A DNA stretch of 46,732 nucleotides from Porticoccaceae bacterium (GTDB lineage: Bacteria > Pseudomonadota > Gammaproteobacteria > Pseudomonadales > Porticoccaceae). The notes under the pieces were generated by a model. That model worked only from the letters and a program-made list of their open reading frames with translations, made no database searches and was not told where the DNA came from. The number at the start of each line of letters is the position of its first letter. Within the stretch, counting starts at the first letter, position 1. Where the stretch lies: contig JANQKW010000189.1 in the NCBI GenBank assembly GCA_028280905.1, positions 1 through 46,732 on the forward strand. Direction: 5' to 3'. The position numbers and the translations under genes are program-made. Positions 10,610 to 14,511 of this stretch are shown one piece after another.

Positions 10610-13321
10610 ATGACAGAAACTCCTCCACTGGTGCTGGTCGACGGTTCATCCTACCTCTACCGCGCCTTTCACGCGTTGCCGCAACTCACCAATTCCAAAG
10701 GCCAACCCACCGGCGCCGTAAAGGGCGTTATCTCCATGTTGCGACGCCTGGAGAAGGACTTTCCCGATAGTCAAATGGCGATAGTGTTCGATGCAAAGGG
10801 CAAGACCTTCCGGGATGAGCTGTACGCCGAGTATAAGGCTAACCGGCCGCCGATGCCGGATGAATTGAGGCAGCAAATTCAACCTATTCACGACATAGTG
10901 ATGGCGATGGGTTGGCCGATGCTGGTGGAGGAGGGTGTCGAGGCGGATGATGTGATAGGCACGCTGGCATGCCAGGCTGCCGACCGAGGCATGGGGGTGG
11001 TAATTTCCACTGGCGACAAAGATATGGCGCAGTTGGTAAACAAGCAGATCACTATAGTTAACACCATGAATGACACGCGCTGGTCACATCAGGGGGTGGT
11101 CGACAAATTCGGTGTGCCCCCCGAGCGCATTATCGATTACCTGGCGTTACTGGGAGACAAGTCCGACAATATTCCCGGTGTTCCGGGGGTAGGGGAGAAA
11201 ACTGCCGTTGCACTGCTTCAAGCTATGGGCAGCCTGGAGCAGATTTACGCAGACCCGGAAAAAGTCGCTGAGCTGCCCGTGCGCGGCGCTAAAAAGTTAT
11301 CGGAAAAGCTGTTGGAGTACCGCGATCAGGCCTTCCTGTCGCAGTTGTTGGCCACTATCAAATGCGACCTGGCTTTGTCGGAAACCGCGGATACGTTGGC
11401 CAAAGCGGCGCCTGACAACGAGCGCCTGTTGGCCCTGTTTCGGGAACTGGAGTTCAAGGCATGGCTGGAAGAATTACTTGATGAGCAAGACACGGAAACC
11501 GCCGAGCGTGCCGGAAAGGACTACCAGACTATCCTGGACGAAGCGCAGCTTGACGCCTGGCTGGAAGAGATTATGGCGGCCGAGGTGGTTGCTTTTGATA
11601 CCGAAACCACCAGCCTGGATTATATGCAGGCGGAGCTGGTGGGTATCTCCGTGGCTGTCTCGCCCGATAGAGCCGCCTATATTCCGGTGGCTCACGATTA
11701 TCTGGGCGCCCCCCAGCAGTTGACCAGGGAAATGGTTTTGCGGAAGTTCAAGCCTTTCCTGGAGGATCCCAAGCGAACTAAGGTCGGCCAAAATCTGAAA
11801 TATGATATGAGCGTGCTGGCGCGTTGCGGCGTCGCCATGCGCGGTGTGGCGTTTGACACCATGCTGGAATCCTACGTGCTGGATGCTACCGGATCGCGAC
11901 ACGATATGGACACCCTGGCGTTGAAATACTTGGGGGAAAAAACAATCCACTTTGAGGATATCGCGGGGAAAGGGTCTGGACAGCTGACGTTTAATCAAAT
12001 TGAGTTAGAAAAGGCTTCTCCCTATGCGGCGGAAGATGCTGACATCACCCTCAGGCTGCATCGGACGCTGTGGCCAAAACTTGCAGCGGAAACATCGTTA
12101 AAAGGGGTTTTTGAAACCATAGAGATGCCGTTGGTGCCCGTGTTGTCGAAAATCGAGCGCAGCGGTGCACTGGTGGATGCGCAGCGGCTCAACGAGCAGA
12201 GCCATCGGCTGGGGTTGCGTATCGTTGAATTGGAAAGCCAGGCCCACGAACTGGCCGGGGGGCCGTTTAATCTGTCTTCCCCCAAACAACTGGGCGAGGT
12301 GCTGTTCGAGAAGCTCAAGCTGCCGATAATAAAAAAAACCGCCAAGGGTGCGCCCTCCACACGAGAAGAAGTGCTCCAGGAGCTGGCGCTGGATTACCCG
12401 TTGCCGAAACTCCTGTTGGAGCACCGCAGTTTGTCAAAATTGAAATCTACCTACACGGACAAGCTGCCTGCGATGGTGAACCCTGTTACCGGGCGAATCC
12501 ACACCTCGTACCACCAGGCGGTGGCTGCAACCGGGCGGTTGTCGTCGACGGACCCGAATTTGCAGAATATTCCGGTGAGGACTGAAGAGGGGCGCAGGAT
12601 CAGGCAGGCGTTTGTGGCGGCCGACGGCTGCAAGCTGGTTGCCGCGGACTATTCGCAGATAGAACTGCGGATTATGGCGCACTTGTCTGGCGACGGTGGG
12701 CTGTTAGATGCCTTTTCCAGGGGATTGGATGTTCACCGTGCTACGGCAGCGGAAGTTTTCGGCGTGGCGTTGGAAGCGGTTAGCAGCGAGCAGCGCCGCA
12801 ATGCCAAGGCGATCAACTTCGGGCTGATCTATGGTATGTCCGCGTTTGGGCTGGCCAGGCAGCTGAATATAGGCCGCCAGCAGGCACAGGCTTACATCGA
12901 TTTGTATTTTGACCGCTATCCGGGTGTACACAGGTATATGGAGAAGATTCGCAAGACCGCGGCGGACAGGGGGTATGTAGAAACGCTTTACGGCCGGCGG
13001 CTGTACCTGCCGGATATCAATGCCGGCAACGCGATGCGCCGGCAAGCCGCCGAGCGCACGGCAATCAACGCGCCCATGCAGGGCACGGCGGCCGATATTA
13101 TCAAGCGGGCGATGGTGGCGGTGGATAACTGGTTGGAGGCGGATGAATTGGATGCGAGGATTATTATGCAGGTCCACGATGAGTTGGTGCTCGAAGTTCC
13201 GCAACAGGAACTGGATGCGGTGCTGGATCGCCTGCCCCAGTTGATGTCCCAGGCCGCGACGCTGGATATACCGCTAATTGTGGATACTGGGGTCGGGGAT
13301 AACTGGGATGAGGCGCATTGA
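10610..13321 (+). CDS. polA: DNA polymerase I
   Basis: This enzyme acts in Okazaki-fragment processing and repair. From ATG 10610 it has 903 residues in three domains: 5'-3' exonuclease (about 1-300, start [12 protein letters not shown]), 3'-5' proofreading domain with the intact DTETTSL motif (D330, E332), and family A polymerase with motif A DYSQIELR (D680), the O-helix [14 protein letters not shown] (about 729-742) and motif C VHDELV (H856). The open frame starts earlier, at TTG 10571, but ATG 10610 gives the family N-terminus and has CAGGGAG upstream. Proofreading residues are present, unlike in some bacterial homologues. Confidence 0.97.
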
Positions 13322-13343
13322 TTCAGTAGCAGGTGCCTCCACT

Positions 13344-13468
13344 GTTGGTTTGGTGCCAGCATCCCGCGGTTATCTAGGAATGACTTTTGAGACTCGCTGT
13401 GAATACGTCCGTGTAAGCTCCGCGTCGACATCCCTGTCGACGAGGGTCTCAAAAGTCATTCCTAGATA
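13344..13468 (+). repeat. Nested palindromic repeat, copy A
   Basis: Outer arms of 23 bp are perfect (13371-13393 with 13446-13468). They enclose a 52-base core that contains a second perfect 8-bp hairpin, CGTCGACA / TGTCGACG (13423-13442), with loop TCCC. The 27 bp to the left (from 13344) also match copy B. Copy B lies head-to-head on the opposite strand 41 bp away. Together they fill half of the polA-engB gap. No coding content is visible. Confidence 0.85.
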
Positions 13469-13509
13469 CCCGCTCAGGGCGTCACAAGTAGCACCGCTGT
13501 AAGCGGGCG

Positions 13510-13632
13510 TCTGGGGACAGTGTTTGAGACCCTCACCGGCAGGGAAGCCGGTGCGGAGCGCCCAGGGATGGGTTCACAGCGAGTCTCAAACACTGTCCCC
13601 AGATGGCCGCGGGCATGTGGCACCAACCCAAC
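13510..13632 (-). repeat. Nested palindromic repeat, copy B (inverted)
   Basis: Outer arms of 21 bp are perfect (13510-13530 with 13583-13603), and an inner 7-bp hairpin CACCGGC / GCCGGTG lies at 13534-13553. Read on the minus strand, its 52-base core has the same length as that of copy A and is identical at 39 of 52 positions. The flank out to 13632 is also homologous. Stem differences from copy A are all compensated. The 41 bp between the copies is bounded by CCCGCT and AGCGGG, so the pair as a whole is also palindromic. Confidence 0.85.
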
Positions 13633-13753
13633 ACGAGAATCGTCCAGATCTGGTCGTGAATTCAATCGGCGGGTTAACGTCAAATCTTTTCACGAAATTC
13701 GCCATAAGGTCGACTCAATACGTTTTACTACCGCAAGGAAGCGTAAAAAAGTT

Positions 13754-13785: not shown

Positions 13786-13889
13786 CGCAAGCACTCGTTG
13801 CTGCTTTCTCCCCCAATATTTAGTGCAAAGCTTGATTTCCCAAGCAACAGCAAAGCAAGCCCTGGCCGATCTTGGTCAGGGTTTTTTTT
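13786..13889 (+). ncRNA. Candidate ErsA/Spot 42-like small RNA
   Basis: A transcript starting about six bases after the sigma-E-type -10 element and ending at the T run would be about 104 nt. It has a 5' stem GCACT / AGTGC (13791-13795, 13822-13826) that exposes a CU-rich loop with TTTCTCCCCC, an A-rich middle, and an intrinsic terminator. The polA-engB gap is where E. coli carries Spot 42 and Pseudomonas carries the AlgU-dependent RNA ErsA, and the promoter here is of the AlgU class. I infer an ErsA-type regulator of outer-membrane or envelope mRNAs. Homology at sequence level was not tested. Confidence 0.65.
13860..13889 (+). terminator. Intrinsic terminator of the small RNA
   Basis: An 8-bp stem, CCCTGGCC with GGTCAGGG (one G-T pair), has a six-base loop and is followed by eight T residues. 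The last T residues form part of the stop codon of the convergent engB gene. Confidence 0.85.
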
Positions 13890-14511
13890 ATCCATCGGTC
13901 GGCAAGTCGGCGTACCAGTCGTTAAGCAGCGCCGTTAACTCCTCAAGCCCAGATTGCTTAAGCGCTGAGAATAGCTGCACCGAGACCTCGTGCCTGAGGC
14001 CTTCCCGTTGCAGCTGCTCAACTACCTTGAGCAGCACGGCCTTGGCCGGCCCATATTTTAGTTTGTCAGCCTTGGTGAGCAATATATGCACCGGCAGCAG
14101 GGATTCAGCCGCCCAGCGGATCATCTGTCGGTCATAGTCCTGCAACGGGTGGCGGATATCCATCAACAACACCAGTCCCTTGAGCGATTTGCGGCGCTGC
14201 AGGTACTCCGCCAGGTTGTGGTCCCAGGTTTGCTTCATTGCCCTGGGCACTTTGGCAAAGCCATATCCCGGTAGGTCCACCAGTCGCTTGTTGTCTCCGA
14301 GGGAGAAGAAGTTAATCAACTGGGTTCTGCCGGGGGTTTTACTGGTGCGCGCCAACTTGCCGTTTTGAGCCAACGTGTTGATGGCGCTGGATTTTCCGGC
14401 GTTTGAGCGACCCGCAAAAGCCACCTCTATGCCTTCATCCGCCGGGCATTGGCGGAGGCTTGGCGCGCTCTTTTCAAAACGGGCGCGGTTAAATGCAATT
14501 GACTCGGTCAT
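13888..14511 (-). CDS. engB: Ribosome biogenesis GTP-binding protein EngB (YihA/YsxC)
   Basis: This essential GTPase takes part in assembly of the large ribosomal subunit. The 207 residues show the TRAFAC GTPase motifs: G1 GRSNAGKSS (34-42), the switch threonine in TPGRTQ, G3 DLPGYG (79-84) and G4 TKAD (146-149). It is convergent with polA and the small RNA, and divergent from the cytochrome c4 gene, the same arrangement as in Pseudomonas. Confidence 0.96.

Follow-up and report, generated by a model that had tools for sequence, protein, structure and literature searches.

A paired hairpin repeat with a constant 52-nt core and covarying arms, dispersed in Gammaproteobacteria and matching two candidate RNA families

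TwoAYGGAY (RF01731) is a candidate or probable RNA with no known function (Weinberg et al. 2010, PMC2864571), for which a CsrA-binding role has been proposed from its loops (PMC4333381). Ysr224 (RF02770), annotated as a Yersinia sRNA, is among the most abundant annotated bacterial sRNAs (PMC9029176). A relaxed-threshold Rfam search links the repeat family described here to both, TwoAYGGAY on one strand and Ysr224 on the other. Databases know a few of its copies, only as two unlinked candidate RNAs. In a literature search (with most subscription journals outside its reach) no paper was found that presents this family as dispersed repeated DNA, and a search with the core sequence returned no relevant paper.

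The window (the whole stretch of DNA analysed, 46 732 nt from a Porticoccaceae bacterium; GenBank GCA_028280905.1, contig JANQKW010000189.1) carries a paired unit of about 291 bp in the gap between two convergent genes, polA, whose stop lies at 13321, and an engB-like GTPase gene (13888-14511, minus strand). The features of the unit are collected in Table 1. A sequence-only reading had placed two inverted copies, A and B, at 13344-13632; they are present there, and this extent falls slightly short of the true unit, which is bounded by the inverted repeat TGTTGGTTTGGTGCCA/TGGCACCAACCCAACA. The copies are convergent 108-nt nested hairpins and, as single-stranded DNA, none of 200 shuffles folded as well. 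They differ at seven positions in the outer arms and at three in the inner hairpin (hairpin 2), every one compensated as had been noted, and the TCCC loops were confirmed in both. The reported core length of 52 bases also stands, with 38/52 identities at our boundaries in place of the 39 given. A further small hairpin, TACGTCCGTGTA/CCCATCCCTGGG, had been missed; several of the remaining core differences fall inside it and are again compensated. The statement that unpaired core parts mutate freely was wrong: the linkers TCGCTGTGAA and GCTC are identical in A and B, and no other part of the family is as well conserved.

Table 1. Parts of the paired unit in the polA-engB gap
Feature	Position	Strand	Evidence
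Whole paired unit	13343..13633	.	139-nt arms 71% complementary; similarity of five own-genome equal-spacing units stops near both ends
Left terminal inverted repeat TGTTGGTTTGGTGCCA	13343..13358	+	left edge conserved among own-genome copies
Right terminal inverted repeat TGGCACCAACCCAACA	13618..13633	-	unit self-complementarity and own-genome unit comparison
Hairpin copy A, Y type; arm CTAGGAATGACTTTTGAGAC, inner hairpin GTCGAC	13365..13472	+	covariance model R1, 126 bits; fold z -9.6
Copy A left outer arm, 21 bp	13373..13393	+	
Copy A right outer arm, 21 bp	13446..13466	+	
Copy A 52-nt three-way-junction core	13394..13445	+	aligns without gaps to 64 other copies
Copy A hairpin 1 TACGTCCGTGTA; loop ANGGA on opposite strand	13404..13415	+	
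Copy A hairpin 2 CGTCGACATCCCTGTCGACG	13423..13442	+	
31-bp spacer separating copies A and B; contains tract TCACAAGTAGCACCG common to other pairs	13473..13503	.	
Hairpin copy B, X type; arm CTGGGGACAGTGTTTGAGAC, inner hairpin ACCGGC	13504..13611	-	R1, 128.7 bits; fold z -8.9
Copy B left outer arm, 21 bp	13583..13603	-	
Copy B right outer arm, 21 bp	13510..13530	-	
Copy B 52-nt core	13531..13582	-	gapless alignment of cores

The end of the same gap is occupied by a strong terminator-like hairpin with a T run (CCCTGGCCGATCTTGGTCAGGGTTTTTTTT; 13795-13891, plus strand) that has a sub-threshold match to Spot_42 (E 0.85). Spot 42 of E. coli is located in the polA-engB gap, and the region here is possibly a small RNA gene.

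The pair belongs to a repeat family and is not a local duplication, the two outcomes that the sequence-only reading had weighed. The motif GAGACTCGCTGTGAA has about 225 matches in the 3.74-Mb draft genome versus 3 for a reversed-pattern control. A covariance model (R1), built from 30 own-genome copies and leaving out copies at contig ends, where many sit, gives 150 matches in the same genome, with more across Gammaproteobacteria. The related genomes that were searched have this core within locus-specific arms, and the exact 30-mer GACACGCCGTGAACCCATCCATGGGGGCTC is present in Stenotrophomonas, Xanthomonas, Lysobacter, Microbulbifer, Marinobacter, Haliea, Shewanella and Halopseudomonas, amongst others. 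Of 249 genomes drawn from the phylum, 18 had matches, all within Gammaproteobacteria. Per-genome copy numbers from these broad searches are lower bounds: one genome (G021) has at least 45 matches, and the distribution is patchy even within a single genus, where G016 has at least 20 matches but G005 none. The consensus core gave no match at E 0.01 to plasmids, phages or E. coli. Many of the own genome's 420 contigs end within copies (e.g. L002 and L019), and in some of the copies at contig ends the arms are mismatched, resembling assembly chimeras.

The constant unit is the 52-nt core, which aligns without gaps over 65 copies and is nearly invariant in length (mostly 52 and 53 nt). It consists, in order, of a 10-nt linker, a 4-bp hairpin, GGCT and a 10-bp hairpin stacked on the outer stem, giving a three-way junction beneath that long stem. 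On the reverse strand, ANGGA is invariant or near-invariant in both loops, which read ATGGAT in most relatives. The outer arms (18-33 bp) differ in sequence between copies whilst retaining their pairing. Among G021 copies with nearly identical cores, the arms 9-12 nt from the core range from chance-level to half alike and are nevertheless 94-100% paired, and S. maltophilia D457 copies show the same divergence with pairing 8-10 nt from the core. In D457, G021 and the own genome alike, arm variability peaks ~8-12 nt from the core, with better conservation to both sides. Some copies (L051 near 1542; L329, L336 and L328, from Stenotrophomonas loci A and B) carry additional hairpin sequence, from tens of nucleotides up to about 100 nt long, within the loop of either hairpin 1 or hairpin 2, and three Stenotrophomonas copies have similar inserts. 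These may be nested mobile hairpins.

The compensation seen in the window keeps the structure in other copies and in other genomes too. Across 774 double-changed cells the covariation score was 0.914, versus at most 0.173 for slid partners; the copies in this alignment were preselected for well-paired arms, and its outer-helix numbers lean towards pairing. Hairpin 2, unused in the preselection, also covaries. The R1 copies found by motif, which like the set chosen by core alone are free of pairing-selection bias at distal arm positions, scored 0.361 against at most 0.101 for slid partners. In the outer helix of the 30 own-genome copies there was no one-sided change, which speaks for upkeep as DNA rather than as RNA.

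Neighbouring copies within 600 bp always lie in the order (+) then (-), in 74/74 cases (34/34 in the own genome and 40/40 in D457). Single copies in D457 show no replichore bias, the record being assumed to start at the origin. Each of the 12 own-genome pairs inspected combines one X-type and one Y-type hairpin, with both overall orientations found; the suggestion of a BIME-like anatomy, inverted pairs of two subtypes, is therefore upheld. Equally spaced own-genome pairs also have a spacer tract and terminal inverted repeats in common, and the pair therefore behaves as a multiplied unit in this genome. The copies are intergenic, and tandem and divergent gene contexts are also occupied.

At five orthologous Stenotrophomonas loci, hairpins at the same position differ between species in arms, cores or both and are still paired; i.e. 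arms and cores are exchanged at fixed sites between sister species. Those orthologous arms that could be aligned yielded 33 compensated and 30 uncompensated differences in 37 comparisons, which have species in common and are not independent. Since the two kinds of change are equally common in close orthologues, correction is not instant. Divergence was 5.0% in the core, 6.5% in the arms and 9.3% in the flanks: the core is held, and the arms evolve no faster than the flanks between close relatives. Wholesale replacement of an arm or core at other loci suggests exchange between copies. Neither genus g11 nor the Stenotrophomonas loci yielded a clean empty site with a target duplication; element-free sister loci in g11 are too diverged for this comparison, and those in Stenotrophomonas look like deletions (e.g. 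G059 locus C and G054 locus E). Mobility is thus argued from copy number, from patchiness and from the structure of the unit. Because arms differ between loci, we also considered whether they are target-derived, through inverted duplication of host DNA on insertion; this was not supported, as the arms are enclosed in a longer conserved element whose outer edges are conserved too, and they keep their place in orthologues.

Taken together, the family is probably a dispersed, non-autonomous, BIME/REPIN-like mobile DNA element whose arms are kept alike by template-switch copying. The element, of ~290 bp, comprises two convergent hairpins, each a conserved 52-nt core within a long palindromic outer stem. 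By analogy with the logic of REPIN/BIME or IS200-like elements, the core could be recognised as a folded single strand by a putative trans-acting enzyme, leading to spread. Pairing would be the sole requirement placed on the outer arms: a polymerase switching template inside an extruded hairpin may copy a mutation of one arm onto the other, and the arms would then drift jointly whilst the core stays fixed. Template switching is established in microbes and can restore stem pairing in one event (PMC8794818). Against this preferred reading stand the absence of a recurrent mobile-element gene family near copies, the failure to obtain a clean empty site and the frequency of uncompensated arm changes in close orthologues; nor does upkeep of the palindrome alone explain the exact conservation of both loops.

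Covariation as extreme as this would normally be taken to indicate a functional RNA. The foremost alternative is a structured RNA, e.g. a CsrA/RsmA-binding sponge or a cis element. ANGGA is the core of the CsrA site, and it is because both loops read ANGGA on the TwoAYGGAY strand that this explanation stays alive. It also draws on the CsrA link proposed for TwoAYGGAY, on the sRNA annotation of Ysr224 and on matches of RF01731 to copies in 7/10 genomes tested, above its 43-bit threshold in 3/10. However, RNA helices normally favour G.T (G.U) pairs. Amongst copies picked by the core alone, arm positions 7-18 hold 968 Watson-Crick, 17 G.T and 131 other cells, so that G.T makes up 17/148 (11%) of non-pairs, not enriched against the 17% expected under equal mismatch types, and G.T is rare in hairpin 2. 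Nor is there any orientation bias relative to genes, single copies included (in tandem contexts, 33 are sense and 34 antisense). Moreover, given the strict (+)(-) pairs, any transcript of a pair contains both strands. The absence of G.T enrichment and of gene-orientation bias points to maintenance of the arms at the DNA level rather than by RNA selection. We therefore consider a structured RNA unlikely, and strong covariation is by itself no proof of one. The sequence-only reading had left the choice between selection for structure and copying that enforces it; the lack of G.T enrichment tips the balance to DNA-level copying.

If the unit were instead MITE-like, a DDE transposase would recognise the terminal inverted repeat TTGGTTTGGTGCCA and the hairpins would be cargo or a stabilising structure. 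Inverted repeats do end the 291-bp unit in own-genome copies, but no target duplication was seen across five aligned units, other genomes have the core in common with merely a short GGTGSC-like edge, and single hairpins spread as well. We regard this as improbable.

Mobilisation by a RAYT (TnpA-REP) tyrosine transposase, as for REP/BIME elements, had been suggested from the sequence, and the BIME-like pairing would suit it. The copy B arm also includes GGGGACAG, which fits GGGGWSAS, a motif in the TIRs of some RAYT-like genes (PMC3733652). In the own genome there is one Y1_Tnp gene (C27; L031, 521-1300), flanked by its own inverted repeats, CCGGGGACAGTTTACTTAATTCG, with which the copy B arm has only GGGGACAG in common. 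Over the own and other genomes, none of 56 Y1_Tnp loci has the element within about 1.5 kb, and the Y1 genes examined in D457 all lie next to different repeats. G021 and G016, rich in element matches, gave no match to Y1_Tnp, and no short palindrome with a GTAG or CGTC foot was seen in the conserved columns. The RAYT explanation is thus largely refuted and we give it very little weight. More generally, no recurrent gene family of mobile-element type, or other recurrent helper gene, was found near copies.

Finally, a stable gene-end structure under selection, acting as a bidirectional terminator or as an mRNA stabiliser and owing its spread to vertical descent and gene conversion alone, would fit the intergenic position, the convergent polA/engB setting and the terminator-like hairpins that Stenotrophomonas pairs often enclose, but is very unlikely given that the element has no T run, occupies tandem and divergent contexts and is patchily distributed across genera.

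A broader proposal, which we make tentatively, is that the family represents a class of mobile DNA common in Gammaproteobacteria, with its identity in the folded 52-nt core, its arms rewritten between copies and a putative enzyme family moving it, the two Rfam families being its two strands. Were this so, two 'RNA' families and the many genome annotations derived from them would be describing the two strands of repeated DNA. The repeat also offers hundreds of natural experiments on palindrome perfection, in which the core is fixed, the arms are free and pairing can be scored directly, and it poses a concrete search, for the enzyme that reads the core.

Compared with the known systems, the element is like TwoAYGGAY in having two small hairpins with ANGGA-type loops atop a long, poorly conserved outer stem. 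All 14 checkable TwoAYGGAY matches lie on element copies, on the opposite strand (6 in D457; 8 in the own genome, G021 and G010). It differs in that TwoAYGGAY is described as a probable RNA and that most element copies are below its threshold: the own genome's best score is 36.3 against the 43-bit cut-off, and the window copies have no match at E 1 or below. One of the four loops in the window is strictly AYGGAY (ACGGAC) and the remainder are AGGGA. The TwoAYGGAY papers found describe neither a high copy number nor convergent pairs nor the rewriting of arms. The consensus core of Ysr224, CGCCGUAAAUACAUCCAUGUAGGCUCG, is the element's plus-strand core (best match E 7e-7), although all element matches score under the 70-bit threshold (best 37.9, a D457 copy; window 24.4) and Ysr224 is treated as an sRNA. 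Its abundance in public annotations may reflect counts of the repeat rather than of an sRNA gene, because a repeat family would explain so high a number. With REP/BIME/REPIN elements the family shares short palindromes, high copy number, intergenic position and inverted pairs of two subtypes, but its stems are much longer, its three-way core is constant while its arms vary, and it has neither a RAYT nor a GTAG foot. As regards MITE features, the ends are inverted repeats and a target-site duplication was not seen. Integron attC sites provide a further resemblance, and only that, in the possible recognition of a folded single strand through conserved unpaired bases; unlike attC, the element has a conserved core and a variable outer stem.
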